The position numbers and the translations under genes are program-made. Positions 32,912 through 40,561 of a stretch of 46,094 nt of DNA are shown in pieces (position 1 is the first letter of the stretch; the number at the start of each line of letters is the position of its first letter). Source of the stretch: Nitrosomonas sp. (GTDB taxonomy: Bacteria > Pseudomonadota > Gammaproteobacteria > Burkholderiales > Nitrosomonadaceae). Below the pieces are notes generated by a model. The model made no database searches, was not told where the DNA came from, and worked only from the letters and a program-made list of their open reading frames with translations. The stretch lies in NCBI RefSeq assembly GCF_024282095.1, contig NZ_JAMWZS010000024.1:1-46094 (forward strand), in the 5' to 3' direction.

Positions 32912-33778
32912 ATGTTACAGCCACCCCCAATTGTACTTTCTTTTGCAGCCAATGATCCCAGCGGTGGAGCCGGTCTTCAGGCCGATATGCTTACTATTGC
33001 CAGTATGGGGTGCCATCCGTTATCCATCGTGACAGCGATTACCGTTCAGGATACGGCTGGAGTGGATGATGTGATGCCGTTGGATGCCGAATGGGTTGTC
33101 GATCAGGCGCGGGCGGTATTGGAAGATATGCCCGTTCATGCATTTAAAATCGGCTTATTAGGCAGCGTTGAAATTATCGCCGCTATTGCAGAAATTATTT
33201 CTGATTACCCGCATATTCCTTTAGTGATGGATCCCGTGCTGACTTCGGGGCGAGGAGATGAGCTGGCTGACGAAGAAATGATCGATGCGATGCGCGAATT
33301 ATTATTACCGCAAGTCACGATATTAACGCCCAATAGCCTGGAAGCCAGGCATCTCGCCCAGCAGGAAAATGACAGTCACGGCACTCAACTGAATTTGAGT
33401 CTGTGCGCGCAGCGATTACTGAGCATGGGATGCGAATATGTGTTGATAACAGGCACGCATGAGAATACTGCGCACGTGACCAACACACTGTTTGCTGCAG
33501 ATGGTGTTGTGCGTGCCGATGAATGGGAGCGCCTTGAGCATACTTATCATGGTTCGGGTTGTACATTAGCCTCGGCGATAGCCGCTTCACTAGCCAATGG
33601 ATTATCGATCAGCGAAAGCGTCATTGAAGCGCAGGATTACACCTGGCACACTTTGCAAGCAGGATTTCGCCCCGGCATGGGACAATATATCCCTAACAGA
33701 CTTTTCTGGACTAAGGAAAGTGAAGATGTCGCAAACGAAAATGCAGGGGTAGTCATTGCAAAACCCAACGATGAATAG
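32912..33778 (+). CDS. thiD: Hydroxymethylpyrimidine/phosphomethylpyrimidine kinase
   Basis: A 288-residue ribokinase-fold enzyme that phosphorylates HMP and HMP-phosphate to HMP-PP, the pyrimidine part of thiamine. Motifs: ANDPSGGAGLQADMLTIASM (substrate loop), KIGLLGSVE, PVLTSGRGD and the anion hole HGSGCTLASAIAASLA. It ends with a tail (TKESEDVANENAGVVI to the stop) about 20 residues beyond the usual end at NRLFW. Its stop codon TAG is formed at the edge of a repeat element that continues into thiE. No TPP riboswitch fits into the 40 bases upstream. Overlaps thiE by 8 bases. Confidence 0.94.
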   Translation: MLQPPPIVLSFAANDPSGGAGLQADMLTIASMGCHPLSIVTAITVQDTAGVDDVMPLDAEWVVDQARAVLEDMPVHAFKIGLLGSVEIIAAIAEIISDYPHIPLVMDPVLTSGRGDELADEEMIDAMRELLLPQVTILTPNSLEARHLAQQENDSHGTQLNLSLCAQRLLSMGCEYVLITGTHENTAHVTNTLFAADGVVRADEWERLEHTYHGSGCTLASAIAASLANGLSISESVIEAQDYTWHTLQAGFRPGMGQYIPNRLFWTKESEDVANENAGVVIAKPNDE

Positions 33779-34532
33779 GCCGTTGAAAAACGTTTTCGAG
33801 GCAGCCGATACCAGGCGAAAACAGGCGAGAAAGCGCAGTTTATGCGTAATCAATGAGCATTCTGAGCCTGCTTTTAACACCGCAGCGGCAACGCAGATAG
33901 TTTTTCAGCGACCTGTTAGCGGGTTGTATGCGATTACCCCGGATTTTGAAAGTACGGACGATCTGCTGGATAAAACGCGGCAAGTGCTGGAAGGAGGAGC
34001 GCAGCTCGTGCAATATCGCAATAAATCAGCGAACAAGGTTTTGCTGAGAGAACAAGCCGAATCATTGCTGCAGTTGTGCAGAAAGCATCAAGTCCCTTTG
34101 ATTATCAATGATCATGTTGATTTGGCAATGGAAATTGACGCGGATGGCGTGCATGTGGGGCAGAACGACGCGGCCGTTACTCATGCGCGGAAACAGCTGG
34201 GGCGCGATAAAATTGTGGGTGCGTCGTGCTATAACAATGGCGATCTGGCGCTCCGGGCTGAAAAACAAGGCGCTGATTATGTTGCTTTCGGTGCCTTTTT
34301 CCCTTCGCTAACCAAACCGGACGCACTATCTGTTACGGCGGATTTGGTGGCCAGCGTCAGAAAGAAAATAGCGATTCCCATCGTGGGGATCGGCGGCATT
34401 CGCTTGACCAATGCCGCAGCGGTTATTCAAAGCGAATGTGCTGCAATCGCCGTTTGCAATGATTTGTTTCATACTGAGAATAGCAAAGTAAAGGCGGCAC
34501 AATTTGCACAATTATTCGCAGTGACTATTTAA
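33771..34532 (+). CDS. thiE: Thiamine-phosphate synthase with repeat-derived N-terminal extension
   Basis: A 253-residue ThiE that couples HMP-PP with thiazole phosphate to thiamine phosphate. The TIM-barrel core begins at SGLYAITPDF (about residue 50) and shows QVLEGGAQLVQYRNK, LIINDHVDLAMEIDADGVHV, VGASCYN, YVAFGAFFPSLTKPDA and IPIVGIGGIR. The usual protein is about 205-215 residues. The extra 46 N-terminal residues (MNRPLKNVFEAADTRRKQAR onward, very basic) are encoded by a repeat element. No start codon exists in frame between the element and the core except a TTG inside the element, so ATG 33771, inside the end of thiD, is the likely start. Confidence 0.9.
   Translation: MNRPLKNVFEAADTRRKQARKRSLCVINEHSEPAFNTAAATQIVFQRPVSGLYAITPDFESTDDLLDKTRQVLEGGAQLVQYRNKSANKVLLREQAESLLQLCRKHQVPLIINDHVDLAMEIDADGVHVGQNDAAVTHARKQLGRDKIVGASCYNNGDLALRAEKQGADYVAFGAFFPSLTKPDALSVTADLVASVRKKIAIPIVGIGGIRLTNAAAVIQSECAAIAVCNDLFHTENSKVKAAQFAQLFAVTI
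33777..33915 (+). repeat. Palindromic repeat element, copy A (139 bp)
   Basis: This stretch is clearly homologous to 39599-39717 (read on the minus strand). Shared blocks are AGGCCGTTGAAAAACGTTTT, GAGGC, AAAACAGG, GCGCAGTTTATG, ATCAATGA, TGAGCCTG, TTTTAACACCG, AGCGGCAACGCAGATAGTTT and CGACCTG. The ends are inverted repeats (AGGCCGTTGAAAAAC and, reversed, AGGTCGCTGAAAAAC), and inner parts also pair, so the whole unit can fold into a long imperfect hairpin. That is the build of ERIC- or MITE-like elements. Copy A is 20 bp longer than copy B, mainly by a 14-base insert after GAGGC. It is read through as thiE codons. Confidence 0.85.
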
Positions 34533-34567
34533 CGTGTATACATCCTGTATTTTTATAAATTCTTATC

Positions 34568-35860
34568 ATGAGTAATGCAATGACTTCACGCAATCATCAA
34601 TTATTTGAACAGTCTCAACACTATATTCCCGGCGGAGTTAATTCTCCTGTGCGCGCTTTTAAATCGGTGGGCGGTGACCCCATTTTTTTTCAACGCGGGG
34701 AAGGCGCCTATTTTTGGGATGCGGATGGAAAGTCGTACATCGACTATGTGGGGTCGTGGGGTCCTTTGATTCTGGGGCATGCGCATCCGGATGTGGTTAA
34801 AGCGGTTCAGACAGCCGCACAAAATGGTTTGACTTTCGGTGCACCGACTGAGGCGGAGTTGGAAATCGCAAAATTGATTTGTCAGTTGCTGCCATCCATT
34901 GAGCAAGTCAGATTAGTCAGTTCCGGTACGGAAGCGGGCATGAGTGTGATTCGGCTGGCGCGTGGTTTTACCGGCAGAAGCAAGATCATCAAATTTGAAG
35001 GTTGCTATCATGGCCACGATGATTCCTTGCTGGTTAAAGCGGGTTCCGGCGCATTAACGTTCGGTAATCCGAGTTCTGCCGGTGTGCCGGCGGAAACAGC
35101 CGGTCATACGATTGTCTTGGATTACAACGACATAGCGGGTATTGAAGACGCATTTAATAAATGGGGACAGGAAATCGCTGCGGTGATTGTTGAGCCGGTC
35201 GCGGGGAATATGAATCTGATCGCTCCCAAGGCGGATTTTCTCACCAGGCTGCGGACATTGTGTACGCAGCACGGCAGTGTGCTGATATTTGATGAAGTCA
35301 TGACAGGATTTCGCGTGGATCTTGGATGCGCGCAGGGTCTGTACCAAATCAAACCTGATTTGACCGCATTAGGTAAAGTGATCGGTGGTGGCATGCCGAT
35401 GGCTGCATTCGGCGGACGACGCGATATCATGCAATGTCTGGCGCCGTTGGGGCCGGTTTATCAAGCAGGTACGCTTTCAGGCAATCCGGTGGCGGTTGCA
35501 GCGGGGCTGGCTACGCTGAAGCAAGTACAAGCGCCCGGTTTTTATGAAAAATTAGGCAACAGGACGCAGCAATTAGTCGATGGTATTACGGCTATCGCAA
35601 AAAAACACGGTATTGATTTTTGTGCGCAATCAATCGGTGGTATGTTCGGGTTGTATTTTAGCAAGGATATTCCCACCAGCTTTGCTGAAGTGATGCAATG
35701 CGACAAGACAGCTTTCAACCGATTCTTTCATGCAATGTTGAAAGAGGGGGTATATTTTGCGCCATCGGCATTTGAAGCCGGTTTTGTATCGTCCATGCAT
35801 GGTGACAATGAATTGGATAAGACATTGTCTGCGGCAGAAAAAATATTTAAGAGTTGGTAA
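34568..35860 (+). CDS. hemL: Glutamate-1-semialdehyde 2,1-aminomutase
   Basis: A 430-residue PLP enzyme that makes 5-aminolevulinate, the first haem precursor of the C5 pathway. Visible: [18 protein letters not shown] (N-terminus), [66 protein letters not shown] and [20 protein letters not shown] with the PLP-binding Lys (near residue 270), then [12 protein letters not shown]. An ATG lies 12 bases downstream of the chosen one and could equally serve. Stands after thiE and shares a bidirectional terminator with the cytochrome c4 gene. Confidence 0.96.
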
Positions 35861-35874
35861 AAACTGAGAGTAAT

Positions 35875-35902
35875 AAAAAAGGCGGCACCTGCCGCCTTTT
35901 TT
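35875..35902. terminator. Bidirectional terminator between hemL and cytochrome c4
   Basis: Six A, then GGCGGC, loop ACCT, GCCGCC, then six T: a perfect symmetric hairpin whose flanking A and T runs act as the T-tail on either strand. It lies 14 bases after hemL and 28 bases after the convergent cytochrome gene. Confidence 0.92.
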
Positions 35903-35930
35903 ACTGTTTACTGGAACAAATTTTGATAAC

Positions 35931-36578
35931 TTAGCGCATAGTGGAAATATACGCTGCAACTGCACGTTTTTCTGCCCCGCTCATGCGAGTCAGCACTTTG
36001 TGCATGACATCATTATCGTTTGCACGATCACCCGTGTTAAACAGATTCAATTGTGTCATTGTATATTCTGCGTGCTGACCAGCCAACGCAGGATAACGCG
36101 GTGGAATACCGGATCCCGTAGGACCATGGCAGCTTGCGCAGGCGGGAACGCCATGCCCAATATTTCCACCATGATAGAGAATTTTTCCGGTTGCAACCAA
36201 TTTCTCATCATCAACAGCTACTTGACTGGGAATAGTTTTTTGTTTGGAGTAATACTCGCCAAGTTTTTTCATATCTTCCGCTGAAAGCGTCGCGACCATC
36301 GAAGACATGACAGGACTGTTACGTTTGGGTGGGGCACTGTCAGTTGCCTTGAAATCAAGCAACTGCTTGGTGATATACTCAGCGCGCTGTCCAGCCAAGA
36401 TAGGATTCATAGGAATGACGCTGTTACCATCCGCATTGTGACAACCAGCACACACACCGGATGCGATTTCTCCAGCTGTCGCAGGAGCAGGGGCAGGTGC
36501 ATCGCTTGTCGTTTCAGCTGCAATGGGTGCAGACAGCACCAGCGCCATCAGCATGATCGTATTCTTAATCATTTTCAT
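35931..36578 (-). CDS. Cytochrome c4 (diheme, periplasmic)
   Basis: A 215-residue exported diheme cytochrome. Signal peptide residues 1-21 (cleavage after IAA), then an Ala/Pro-rich spacer. Haem motifs are CAGCH (43-47) and CASCH (147-151), each in the c4-type setting (GVCAGCHNADGN with PILAGQ; ACASCHGPTGSGIPPRYPAL, AGQHAEYT). The two-fold repeat is that of cytochrome c4, which passes electrons to terminal oxidases. It fits the haem-rich electron transport of ammonia oxidisers. The codon at 36572 is an alternative ATG. Confidence 0.9.
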   Translation of the reverse strand: MKMIKNTIMLMALVLSAPIAAETTSDAPAPAPATAGEIASGVCAGCHNADGNSVIPMNPILAGQRAEYITKQLLDFKATDSAPPKRNSPVMSSMVATLSAEDMKKLGEYYSKQKTIPSQVAVDDEKLVATGKILYHGGNIGHGVPACASCHGPTGSGIPPRYPALAGQHAEYTMTQLNLFNTGDRANDNDVMHKVLTRMSGAEKRAVAAYISTMR

Positions 36579-36723
36579 ATTTCGTATTCCGTATTTTAAA
36601 AAAGCATTTAAATGTTGGTAGGGTAGATGTATTTGACAATTAGTACTTATTATATTTTAGCAAGGCAAAAGCACGTTAACAACAAAATTAAGCTAATATC
36701 AAAATTTAGAATTTTATTTTTCA

Positions 36724-37323
36724 ATGAAAATAATCTTTATTCTTTTGCTGATTGCTAATATGGTTGCTTACGTAACTGGCACGACATTGCATCCCGACCA
36801 GGGAAGTATGGTGCAAGCACCGGTAGTATTGAATCCTGAGAAAATTGTTTTATTGCCGATTGATGAAAATTGTTTGGAGTGGGTTGGTTTGGATGAAGAA
36901 CAGCTGCAGTATGGTGAAACAGTGCTGTCGGAGATCGTTCCTGAACAATCCTATCGCCTGGAAGAAGCTGCTAACACGACAATGTATTGGGTATATATTC
37001 CTCCTTTGCCAAATAAGGAAGCTGCGAATCGTATGATCAATAAGTTACGCAATCTCGGTATTGTCAGTTTTCGTGTACGGGAGGATAGTCAATGGAAAAA
37101 TGCTGTTTCCCTAGGTAAGTTTCATGATAACGATGAAGCATTGAGGCAACTGAAAGAAATAGAAAGAAAGGGGATTACAGGTGCTACGATTGAGGGTCGC
37201 GACGTTACACTGATGAAAATTGTAATTTATAATCCAACTCCAACGATGAAAGAGCAGGTACAAAAATTAGTCGAACAATTTGAAGGTACCCGTTTGATTC
37301 AAAGCCAGTGTGAACGCTTATAA
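36724..37323 (+). CDS. SPOR domain protein
   Basis: A 199-residue protein with an N-terminal hydrophobic helix (MKIIFILLLIANMVAYVTGT), an anchor or signal. The middle part (about 25-75) is acidic and unassigned. Residues about 85-160 form a SPOR-like fold: MYWVYIPPLPNKEAANRMIN, LRNLGIVSFRVREDSQWKNA, VSLGKFHDNDEALRQLKEIE. SPOR domains bind denuded peptidoglycan glycan strands, often at the septum. It starts directly after an AT-rich promoter region and lies about 110 bases before map; no division genes are nearby. Confidence 0.75.
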   Translation: MKIIFILLLIANMVAYVTGTTLHPDQGSMVQAPVVLNPEKIVLLPIDENCLEWVGLDEEQLQYGETVLSEIVPEQSYRLEEAANTTMYWVYIPPLPNKEAANRMINKLRNLGIVSFRVREDSQWKNAVSLGKFHDNDEALRQLKEIERKGITGATIEGRDVTLMKIVIYNPTPTMKEQVQKLVEQFEGTRLIQSQCERL

Positions 37324-37434
37324 TGCACAGTTAAAAAATGGAATGATTGGATGGCATGGCTTGGGATATTTGTTGCAACATTGCCCATGCATTGTGAAAA
37401 TCTCAAATTAATCAAACAAGCAAGCAAGATAATA

Positions 37435-38241
37435 ATGACGGTATCGATAAAAACACCGCAAGAAATTGAAAAGATGCGTATTGCCGGACGGTTGGCGTCT
37501 GAAGTATTGGATTACATAACGCCATTTGTTGTCGCTGGGATTACTACCGAAGAGCTGGATGTACTCTGCCATAATTACATGGTGGATGTACAGAAGACGA
37601 TACCCGCACCGCTCAATTATGCGCCTTCGGGACATTCTCCCTATCCCAAATCGATTTGCACCTCGGTAAACAATCAGATTTGTCATGGCGTCCCCGGCAA
37701 GAAGACATTAAAAAATGGCGATATCATCAATATCGATATTACAGTCATTTATGAGAAATATCATGGTGATACCAGTCGCATGTTTTATGTTGGCGAGCCA
37801 TCCATACAAGCAAGGCGTCTATGCGAAGTCACTTTTGAAGCAATGTGGCGCGGCATCGATGAAATAAAACCCGGTAAGCACTTAGGGGATATCGGACATG
37901 CGATTCAAAGACTGGCTGAAGGTGTGGGCTATAGTGTGGTCAGGGAATTTTGCGGGCACGGTATCGGTGCAAAGTTTCATGAAGATCCGCAAGTACTTCA
38001 TTATGGACGCCCCAAAACGGGTCTGGAGCTGAAGCCGGGTATGATATTCACCGTGGAGCCCATGATTAATGCCGGTAAAGCGGCTATCCGCCATCTGCCG
38101 GACGGTTGGACCGTTACCACTAAGGATGGCAGTCTGTCCGCACAGTGGGAGCACACCATTCTGGTGACCGAAGACGGCCATGACGTGCTGACGGTATCGG
38201 CAGGTGCGCCCGCCAAGCCGATTTATCGCTTTGCAAGTTAA
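37435..38241 (+). CDS. map: Methionine aminopeptidase type I
   Basis: A 268-residue Map that removes the initiator Met. ATG 37435 gives the usual N-terminus MTVSIKTPQEIEKMRIAGRL; the earlier in-frame ATG adds a stretch unlike the family. The five metal ligands are in INIDITVIYEKYHGDTSRMF (two Asp), GHGIGAKFHEDPQVLHYG (His), FTVEPMIN (Glu) and QWEHTILVTEDG (Glu). It is followed by rph-rdgB with a 24-base gap. Map often follows glnD or precedes rpsB divergently; neither is here. Confidence 0.94.
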   Translation: MTVSIKTPQEIEKMRIAGRLASEVLDYITPFVVAGITTEELDVLCHNYMVDVQKTIPAPLNYAPSGHSPYPKSICTSVNNQICHGVPGKKTLKNGDIINIDITVIYEKYHGDTSRMFYVGEPSIQARRLCEVTFEAMWRGIDEIKPGKHLGDIGHAIQRLAEGVGYSVVREFCGHGIGAKFHEDPQVLHYGRPKTGLELKPGMIFTVEPMINAGKAAIRHLPDGWTVTTKDGSLSAQWEHTILVTEDGHDVLTVSAGAPAKPIYRFAS

Positions 38242-38265
38242 TTTTATACCCGGAAATTATTAATC

Positions 38266-39003
38266 ATGATACGCAGCCATCAACGCATCCCCGCGCAAAT
38301 CCGCCCCGTCAGAATCACTCGTCATTACACCAAGCATGCCGACGGTTCGGTGCTGATCGAATGCGGTGACACCAAAGTGATCTGCACAGCCAGCATCAGT
38401 GAACAAATCCCGCCGTTTTTGAAAGGCCAGGGACAAGGCTGGTTGACTGCCGAATACGGTATGTTGCCTGGTTCAACACATTCGCGTATGCAGCGCGAAG
38501 CTGCCAAAGGCAAGCAATCAGGGCGCACCATGGAGATTCAGCGCTTGATCGGGCGCGCTTTACGCGCTGTTGTTGATTTAAAGAAACTGGGAGAGCGCAC
38601 CATTCAAATTGATTGCGATGTGATTCAAGCGGATGGCGGTACGCGCACTGCCAGTATTACGGGAGCGTTCGTGGCGCTGCACGACGCTGTCGAGAAGTTG
38701 ATTTATCAACAATTGATTGAAACCACGCCGATCATCGATCATGTAGCGGCGATTTCAGTAGGCGTTTATCAAGGCATTCCGATGCTGGACCTGGATTATG
38801 TTGAAGATTCTTCTTGTGATACGGACATGAATGTGGTGATGACCGGGAACCTGGGAATCGTCGAAGTACAGGGAACGGCGGAAGGCAATGCATTCAACCG
38901 GAAAGAACTGGATATCATGCTGGATATGGCGCAGCACGGCATTCAGGAACTGATTGCAATTCAGAAAGAAGCTCTGGCACAGGAAGCAGCCAGTCATGGA
39001 TAA
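38266..39003 (+). CDS. rph: Ribonuclease PH
   Basis: A 245-residue phosphorolytic 3'-5' exoribonuclease that trims tRNA 3' ends. Motifs: [38 protein letters not shown] (phosphate site), [40 protein letters not shown] and [19 protein letters not shown]. Length is normal and no frameshift is seen. Overlaps rdgB by 8 bases, a pairing common in proteobacteria. Confidence 0.96.
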
Positions 39004-39598
39004 GCTGAAAAAATTGGTGATTGCAAGTAATAATCAGGGCAAGTTGCGTGAAATTAATGCGCTGCTGGCTCCTTTGGCGATCGAGGTAGTGCCCCAATCT
39101 GATTTTAATGCCGGTGAAATTGACGAGCCGCATAGCACCTTTGTTGAAAATGCTCTGGCTAAGGCGCGTCATGCCAGTCATTGTTCAGGGTTGCCGGCAC
39201 TGGCGGATGATTCTGGAATTTGTGTTAATGCGCTGAATGGTGTGCCGGGTGTTTCTTCAGCGCGCTATGCCGGAGAACCGAGATCCGATGAGCGCAATAA
39301 CCTGAAATTGATCGAAGCGCTTAAAAATAAATCAGACCGGCATGCTTATTATTATTGTGTGATTGTTTTGGTACGTTCTGTTGATGATCCACAACCCATT
39401 ATTGTCGATGGATCCTGGCATGGCGAAATTATCGAGCATCCGCAAGGTACAGGCGGATTCGGTTACGATCCGTATTTTTTTGTGCCCGAGTTTGGTAAAA
39501 CTGCGGCGGAGTTGTCGGCGGAACAAAAGAATTTAATCAGCCATCGCGGCAAAGCGTTGGCGCAATTATCGGCGATCTTGCAGTCTGGAAAATTCTGA
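38996..39598 (+). CDS. rdgB: XTP/dITP diphosphatase
   Basis: A 200-residue Ham1/RdgB pyrophosphatase that hydrolyses non-canonical purine nucleotides (dITP, XTP). Motifs: [75 protein letters not shown] and [16 protein letters not shown] 38996 sits inside the end of rph, which gives the normal N-terminus. The stop codon TGA (39596-39598) is directly followed by repeat element copy B. Confidence 0.95.
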
Positions 39599-39717
39599 CA
39601 GGTCGTTAAAACTATCTGCGTTGCCGCTACGGTGTTAAAAACAGGCTCAAATCATTGATCATACATAAACTGCGCGTTTTCACCTGTTTTTGCCTCAAAA
39701 CGTTTTTCAACGGCCTG
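39599..39717 (-). repeat. Palindromic repeat element, copy B (119 bp)
   Basis: This fills the gap between the convergent rdgB and fghA genes: its first base follows the rdgB stop and it ends 4 bases before the fghA stop. Read on the minus strand it aligns along its full length with 33777-33915 at high identity in the blocks. The ends CAGGTCGTTAAAAC and (inverse) CAGGCCGTTGAAAAACG are inverted repeats. Between two convergent genes, the hairpin it forms could serve as a terminator for both, in the way ERIC elements sit in transcribed spacers. Confidence 0.85.
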
Positions 39718-39721
39718 CTGA

Positions 39722-40561
39722 TCACAGCAGCGCAGTGTGATGATGTTTCAGGTGATCATCGATAAATGTGCTGATGAAGTAATAACTATGATCGTATCCA
39801 CTGTGAAAACGCAATGTGAGCTTCTGATCCGCTTCGCGGCATGCTTTTTCCAAAGCTTCCGGAGATAGCTGTTGCGCCAGAAACTGATCGTCCAGACCCT
39901 GATCGATCAATAAATCGGGTGCACGGCGACCGTCTTCGATCAACGCAATGGCATCGTATTGGCGCCAGTTTTGTTGATCTTCACCCAAATAGTTGCGAAA
40001 TGCTTTCTGTCCCCATGGGCACTGCATCGGCGCGCAAATTGGTGCGAATGCTGATACCGAGTGGTAAATTTCCGGATAGCGCAGCGCTAACGTCAACGCG
40101 CCATGACCTCCCATGGAGTGACCAAAAATGCCCGTGCGATTTTTATCAACAGGAAAATGCTCGATAATGATTTCACGCAACTCCTGCGTGATGTAGCTTT
40201 CCATACGATAATACTGCGACCAAGGCGCTTGCGTCGCGTCCAAGTAAAATCCCGCGCCGGCACCGAAATCCCAAGCATCGGTTTCACCCGCAATACCGGT
40301 CTGGCGCGGACTGGTATCCATCGACACCAGCATTAATCCATATTCAGCGGCATAGCGCTGCGCACCGGCTTTGATCATGAAAGTTTCTTCGGTACAGGTC
40401 AGTCCGGCCAGGAAAAATAGTGCCGGAACGCGCTGCTGCTCCGCTTGCGGCGGTTGATAGACTGAGAATCGCATCGGCAGGCCGATGGTCTTGGATGGAT
40501 GCTGGTAAAAGCCCTGGATGCCGCCAAAGCAGCGATGCTGGCTGCGGGTTTCGAGTGCCAT
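39722..40561 (-). CDS. fghA: S-formylglutathione hydrolase
   Basis: A 279-residue alpha/beta hydrolase (esterase D family) that splits S-formylglutathione into formate and glutathione, the second step of glutathione-dependent formaldehyde removal. Motifs: CFGGIQGFYQHPS (N-terminus), PALFFLAGLTCTEETF (oxyanion loop), GHSMGGHGALTLAL with the nucleophile Ser149, an Asp in LLIDQGLDDQFLAQQL and the His in HSGYDHSYYFI. Six bases or so after adhC in one operon. Its 3' end abuts repeat copy B. Confidence 0.95.
   Translation of the reverse strand: MALETRSQHRCFGGIQGFYQHPSKTIGLPMRFSVYQPPQAEQQRVPALFFLAGLTCTEETFMIKAGAQRYAAEYGLMLVSMDTSPRQTGIAGETDAWDFGAGAGFYLDATQAPWSQYYRMESYITQELREIIIEHFPVDKNRTGIFGHSMGGHGALTLALRYPEIYHSVSAFAPICAPMQCPWGQKAFRNYLGEDQQNWRQYDAIALIEDGRRAPDLLIDQGLDDQFLAQQLSPEALEKACREADQKLTLRFHSGYDHSYYFISTFIDDHLKHHHTALL

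Follow-up and report, generated by a model that had tools for sequence, protein, structure and literature searches.

The stretch analysed here, hereafter the window, is the 46,094-nt contig NZ_JAMWZS010000024.1 of a Nitrosomonas genome, which carries two copies of a palindromic repeat family that we characterize as a miniature inverted-repeat transposable element (MITE). Copy 1 (140 bp, positions 33776–33915, plus strand) begins within the overlap of thiD, encoding hydroxymethylpyrimidine kinase (32912–33778, plus strand), and the thiE open reading frame, which runs from a TTG codon (33756–34532, plus strand) and matches TIGR00693 from residue 57; the two frames share 23 bases (33756–33778), the TTG start lying inside thiD. 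Copy 2 (119 bp, 39599–39717, minus strand), which bears internal deletions, separates the convergent genes rdgB, for a non-canonical purine NTP pyrophosphatase (38954–39598, plus strand), and fghA, for S-formylglutathione hydrolase (39722–40561, minus strand). Both copies were delimited by alignment and profile search. The original prediction, made from the letters of the window, had placed the repeats at gene ends, which is right for both: the thiD stop codon TAG (33776–33778) forms the first three bases of copy 1, and the left target duplication of copy 2, CTGA (39595–39598), holds the rdgB stop TGA, while the fghA stop abuts the right duplication, also CTGA (39718–39721).

The two stretches align end to end with a mean column identity of 83%, 20-nt flanks included, copy 2 being 21 bases shorter than copy 1 (alignment gaps of 15, 4 and 2). 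The start of copy 1, previously given as 33777, is corrected to 33776, where its first base is T and that of the family is C. The inverted-repeat ends noticed earlier are real, and in the family consensus they form a 16-bp terminal repeat, CAGGCCGTTGAAAAAC, in which 16 of 16 bases are complementary. In total, 76 of the 140 consensus positions equal their own reverse complement, a value reached by none of 20000 base shuffles; the inner palindrome is weaker (42 of 100 interior positions, with 75 of 20000 shuffles equally good). In copy 1, an end-pattern search places the left terminal inverted repeat, TAGGCCGTTGAAAAAC, at 33776–33791 (plus strand), with one mismatch to the pattern, and the right one, CAGGTCGCTGAAAAAC on the minus strand, at 33900–33915. 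The right target duplication of this copy, TTAG (33916–33919), was recognized from the profile search and from relatives' loci; the corresponding left place (33772–33775, profile search) now reads TGAA, with two of its four bases unlike the right duplication.

The family is far larger than the window suggests. The original prediction had described a two-copy family while guessing that the genome held many more, and had proposed a whole-genome search by which the guess would fall if only these two copies existed. That search was run with both window copies as queries over the host genome (2.80 Mb, 81 contigs), and the best 40 of 105 candidates for one query and the best 40 of 100 for the other are all copies. 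Scanning fetched stretches of the host genome and of a complete relative genome (G020) with a 68-seed profile gave at least 73 matches in the former, at least 56 of them full length, and at least 41 in the latter, at least 35 of them full length; these counts are lower bounds, the fetched stretches covering the listed places alone, and some of the 17 partial host matches may be pieces of a single element. The two-copy description is thus wrong and the guess of many copies correct. Consistently, the 16-base end pattern with up to 2 mismatches has 161 matches in the host genome and 16 for the reversed control. Analyses of the family used 91 full-length copies (56 from the host and 35 from G020), of which 47 are exactly 140 bp long. 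Short (140-bp consensus), multi-copy and without a transposase, the family is a MITE.

Just outside the element ends, 4-bp duplications provide the signature of transposition. Flanking 4-mers are identical on both sides in 44 of the 91 full-length copies and differ by one base in 21, against 0, 1 and 0 of 91 identical pairs at control offsets of 4, 8 and 12 bases, and 131 of the 182 flanking 4-mers are of the YTAR type.

Both window sites are empty in relatives, and likeness between the copies ends at the element boundaries, which disposes of the proviso, raised with the original prediction, that the similarity might be homology of a larger coding region. For thiE, 30 loci (the host's included) of the 50 genomes with a match were examined on both strands, and the element is absent from 29 of the 29 others. 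There thiE reads ...I-x-G-L-Y-A-I-(T/L)-P, and the empty site is ATTAGC or ATTAAC in several relatives; in the near relatives L173, L175 and L176, inspection by eye shows ATTAAC serving both as the thiD end (TAA) and as thiE codons, in two frames. The window ThiE begins MQNPT and reaches SGLYAITP through 49 residues, in the place of a single residue in relatives. Copy 1 is inside thiE and in frame, a point missed in the earlier account: thiE codons ~7–54 consist of the element plus one target duplication, a net addition of 48 in-frame codons. Two features favour use of the TTG at 33756, namely a GGGG that precedes it by six bases and, by eye, possible TTG or GTG start codons at the equivalent position of relatives' loci; the 48 added residues are probably translated. 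In the predicted ThiE structure (mean predicted local distance difference test, pLDDT, 80.7; 13 sequences in the alignment), the catalytic barrel keeps high confidence and residues 1–51 fall below pLDDT 50. For rdgB, 30 loci (the host's included) of the 44 genomes with a match were examined on both strands, and none of the 29 others has the element at the stop (L222 was misplaced, at a contig edge); in L225 the profile matches weakly and in part (15.9 bits) 54 bases beyond that point, and in L221 a sequence resembling an element end lies 214 bases downstream of rdgB, where the profile finds no element.

A candidate autonomous partner is an insertion sequence (IS) found in G020. When 50 genomes of the genus were searched for exact occurrences of YTAR joined to the element end, 22 had matches, and those in G020 included pairs ~1.34 kb apart. 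The IS copies there, of 1345, 1345 and 1341 bp, have 16-bp ends identical to those of the MITE and YTAR flanks, and one encodes an intact 362-aa transposase with DUF772 and DDE domains (PF05598 and PF01609 above cut-off), which scores 273.7 bits on NF033581 (NCBIfam, IS5 family; cut-off 140). A cousin IS in G006 is present as two copies of 1313 bp with ends CAGGCTGCTGAAAAAC and TTAG or CTAG duplications, and its transposase is 53% identical to that of G020. Transposase relatives were detected at E 1e-20 in 6 of the 50 genus genomes, and the MITE itself in 43 of 49, the host included.

The family, its ends, the duplications, the empty sites, the IS with matching ends and the open frames are direct observations. 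The number of copies, their terminal repeats and target duplications, the empty sites in relatives and an autonomous IS sharing the same ends make it very probable that the repeats are a 140-bp non-autonomous MITE that depends on an IS5-type transposase in trans, inserts at 4-bp YTAR sites and persists on stop codons or in frame; the same lines of evidence bear out the MITE half of the likeness to ERIC or MITE elements drawn in the original prediction. In this model, an IS5-family transposase would recognize the 16-bp ends in trans and insert the element at a 4-bp YTAR, which is duplicated in the process. Judged from sequence, the transposase of the G020-type IS probably mobilized the MITE.

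Several observations weigh against this account. Two or more mismatches separate the flanking 4-mers in 26 of the 91 copies, and the left duplication of copy 1 has decayed (TGAA versus TTAG). Host-genome copies are less similar to the consensus than those of G020 (mean identity 89.8% versus 95.7%), and a search of the host genome for the partner transposase at E 1e-20 found nothing, so that present mobility in this genome is unsupported. By inspection, the interiors of the MITE and the IS are unlike and only the 16-bp ends are common to them; the evidence for a partnership therefore consists of matching ends and target, and descent of the MITE from the G020 IS is unsupported. Translation of ThiE could in principle start after the element. 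Finally, genes were called with a simple codon-usage script, and the background sites used below come from the stretches around elements.

At stop codons, the target duplication falls exactly on the stop of a called gene in 19 of the 91 copies, about four times the frequency among background YTAR sites of the same stretches that lie outside gene interiors (103 of 1821; odds ratio 4.4, p 1.9e-6), and the enrichment is stable under other gene-length thresholds. The other 72 copies are not on any called stop. Gene calls put four host-genome copies inside genes, among them copy 1, which does not count among the 19; two others (L259 and L261) are better explained by a gene start after the element. 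Stop codons can serve as sites because YTAR includes TAA and TAG, and the less common CTGA includes TGA; with the stop restored by the duplication, the gene is expected to stay intact, and such insertions are probably harmless. An insertion into a stop codon would rebuild the stop, do little harm and persist, which accounts for the position of both window copies at gene ends. The enrichment over other YTAR sites outside gene interiors could instead reflect a transposase that truly prefers stop contexts, and not the survival of harmless insertions, but a survival filter predicts the same direction, the sample contains no unselected insertions and 72 of the 91 copies lie off called stops; we consider such a preference rather unlikely.

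Inside genes, the length of the element matters: 140 bp plus a 4-bp duplication gives 144 nt, or 48 codons, and frame +1 of the consensus is the only one without stops. With one usable strand out of two and one usable frame out of three, about a sixth of intragenic insertions would keep the gene open with 48 added residues, and these are probably the in-frame copies that remain. At copy 1, the insertion would have added residues to thiE while thiD kept a stop at the element edge. A second in-frame insertion in the host genome, in the same frame as in thiE, affects a gene with LysM and FecR domains (L237; 29 of 30 loci readable, the host's included, both strands read): once the 48 residues are removed, its N-terminus has, by eye, 33 residues up to an EEW motif, as in L391 and L392. 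The 48-residue consensus matched in 20 of 20 chosen element-rich genomes, and 12 open frames, mostly the longest, were fetched among the matches listed. Three insertions (L450, L451 and L454) lie inside a gene: in cobQ of G027, in an epimerase-like gene of G048 and between the two Pfam domains of a heparinase-like gene of G008. The cobQ insert spans residues 409–457 of 567 with the duplication TTAA, and the protein gives a single NCBIfam alignment over profile positions 2–479 of 480 (656.9 bits). For L451 the Pfam alignment alone is no proof of insertion (244 residues versus 237 profile positions), and for L454 the flanking 4-mers are unlike (TTTG and CTAG). Two N-terminal frames (L455 and L456) represent one and the same gene, a secretin gene whose start carries a common, still open in-frame insertion in G037 and G002, and a further N-terminal insertion is probable in a DUF192 gene of G016 (L457). 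Four frames have a likely gene start after the element (L452, L453, L460 and L461), and two are short and without a known gene (L458 and L459). The same MITE site lies directly upstream of one small gene in two genomes, G020 (L460) and G022 (L461).

An exact 29-base pattern from the MITE interior occurs in 62 stretches of named genome contigs, 48 of them from Nitrosomonas and 2 from other Nitrosomonadaceae, the remainder comprising 7 from Pseudomonas, 2 from unnamed Proteobacteria and 1 each from an unnamed gammaproteobacterium, Cycloclasticus and a Saccharibacteria bin; in some of the non-Nitrosomonas stretches the likeness is limited to the interior. A Pseudomonas veronii plasmid record holds a full-length copy at 82%, and 4 of 32 genomes from other families of the order have weaker matches. 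The Candidatus Saccharibacteria bin (L359) carries most of the MITE, perhaps through a binning error. In G017 (L488–L507) and G038 (L522–L526) the interior is framed by other ends, GGAACCTCTGAAAAACG, and the G017 interior differs from the Nitrosomonas consensus at 21 of 124 bases. These copies number 25, of which 22 are measurable: 13 are 142 bp long including an outer G/C pair, which can instead be counted with the duplication to give 140 bp, and 11 of the 22 have YTA on the left and TAR on the right. One G068 copy has a third pair of terminal repeats. The occurrence of one interior under different ends suggests an exchange of ends between IS5-type mini-elements.

This mosaic allows a further reading, in which the element is "coding-safe" by design: its near-constant size (140 bp plus 4) and its open frame would have been favoured for survival in genes and on stops. 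The interior, which persists under the ends CAGGCCGTTGAAAAAC, GGAACCTCTGAAAAACG and the third G068 pair and occurs in Nitrosomonas and some Pseudomonas, would have a function of its own, for example as a host-factor or transposase-enhancer site, and be swapped between IS5-type ends. We give this reading little credence, the more so as most readable Pseudomonas copies are not open.

Less probable still is that the element is kept for a useful 48-codon peptide, in the manner of the Rickettsia palindromic elements (RPEs). The frame is indeed open in the Nitrosomonas and G017 consensus sequences and in two Pseudomonas copies (L348 and L370), and several conserved genes carry in-frame insertions, but the G026 consensus contains a stop, among six readable Pseudomonas copies four have a shifted frame or a stop, and just 42 of the 91 copies keep the frame open. 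G073 copies measure 139–143 bp; of four read on the element strand, two are open and two stopped, and two further copies were read on the other strand. Frame by frame, the ratio of nonsynonymous to synonymous differences (pN/pS) among five subfamily sequences (G073 and G068 left out) ranges from 0.41 to 1.14 over ten pairs and is not consistently below that of other frames, although the two Pseudomonas rows of this set are the two open copies of the six readable, a choice that favours openness. The insert common to G037 and G002, although still open, changes at a relaxed rate, with a pN/pS of 0.66 versus 0.11 in the next 340 codons, and the modelled ThiE falls below pLDDT 50 over residues 1–51. 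Selection on the encoded peptide is thus unsupported by the frame-wise pN/pS, by the G037/G002 insert and by the open share.

Hardly credible is a structured RNA or terminator-like element at gene 3' ends, acting on transcript stability or termination as a REP- or ERIC-style hairpin: the repeat is palindromic, it adjoins a called stop codon in 19 of 91 copies and single copies fold somewhat better than shuffles, as the RNA folding proposed with the original prediction showed to a modest degree (z −1.5 to −3.1, four strands), but the consensus structure of 40 aligned copies reaches −5.14 kcal/mol with a covariation term of just −0.3, sites are empty in relatives and 72 of 91 copies lie off called stops. 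The alignment comprised 40 of the 56 full-length host copies (G000), the 16 left out being mostly lower-scoring, and on its covariation term a conserved RNA structure was rejected. At the gathering score, Rfam has no match at either copy; within the window it matches a tRNA (800–872) and nothing else. Together, the codon and RNA tests indicate that insertions are tolerated and not demonstrably useful, tolerance being the simplest reading.

Among described systems, the closest is MITEPsy1 of Pseudomonas syringae pv. phaseolicola, which, according to PMC3189936, is likewise short and non-autonomous, is attributed to the IS5-family ISPsy2, has been reported to transpose, makes a 4-nt duplication (CTAG or YTAA) and has a terminal repeat that also contains TGAAAAA. 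As described there, it differs in its outer terminal repeat, in its length of 100 nt, which gives 104 nt per insertion and shifts the frame, and in its six genomic copies, compared with at least 56 full-length copies here. RPEs, according to PMC2229807 and PMC10969869, are 105–146 bp long with terminal inverted repeats and carry an open frame that is read in phase with the conserved protein genes around it; compared by description, the likeness is one of in-frame insertion habit alone. The target duplication of RPEs is entered as '?' in the table of PMC2229807, whereas the present family has 4-bp YTAR duplications and a candidate IS5-type partner. Coxiella QMITEs, as PMC5896051 describes them, are likewise bacterial MITEs that add in frame to genes, in another host. 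ERIC elements were compared by description alone: in PMC2229807 they are palindromic, 127 bp long (as ERIC/IRU) and sometimes fused in frame, and they have a 7-bp terminal repeat with TA ends. Set against a 16-bp repeat and a 4-bp YTAR duplication, these features exclude membership, and the ERIC half of the original comparison does not extend beyond size and shape. Our literature search, which mostly lay outside subscription journals, found no description of this MITE family.

An element that combines an in-frame habit with measured ends and target, empty sites and a candidate transposase makes both its spread and the way in which proteins absorb 48 foreign residues directly testable. To our knowledge, the mode of movement of protein-coding palindromes such as RPEs is not settled. 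The family also offers a simple reason for repeats on gene ends, namely a target site that holds the stop codon and is duplicated, and it implies that ThiE and similar proteins in these genomes contain transposon-derived segments that annotation may take as native. The MITE can itself be a target: in one G020 stretch (L152, bases 387–1458), a second insertion, ~0.9 kb long and bounded by the ends GGCTATGTCACCGTTAA, splits a copy.

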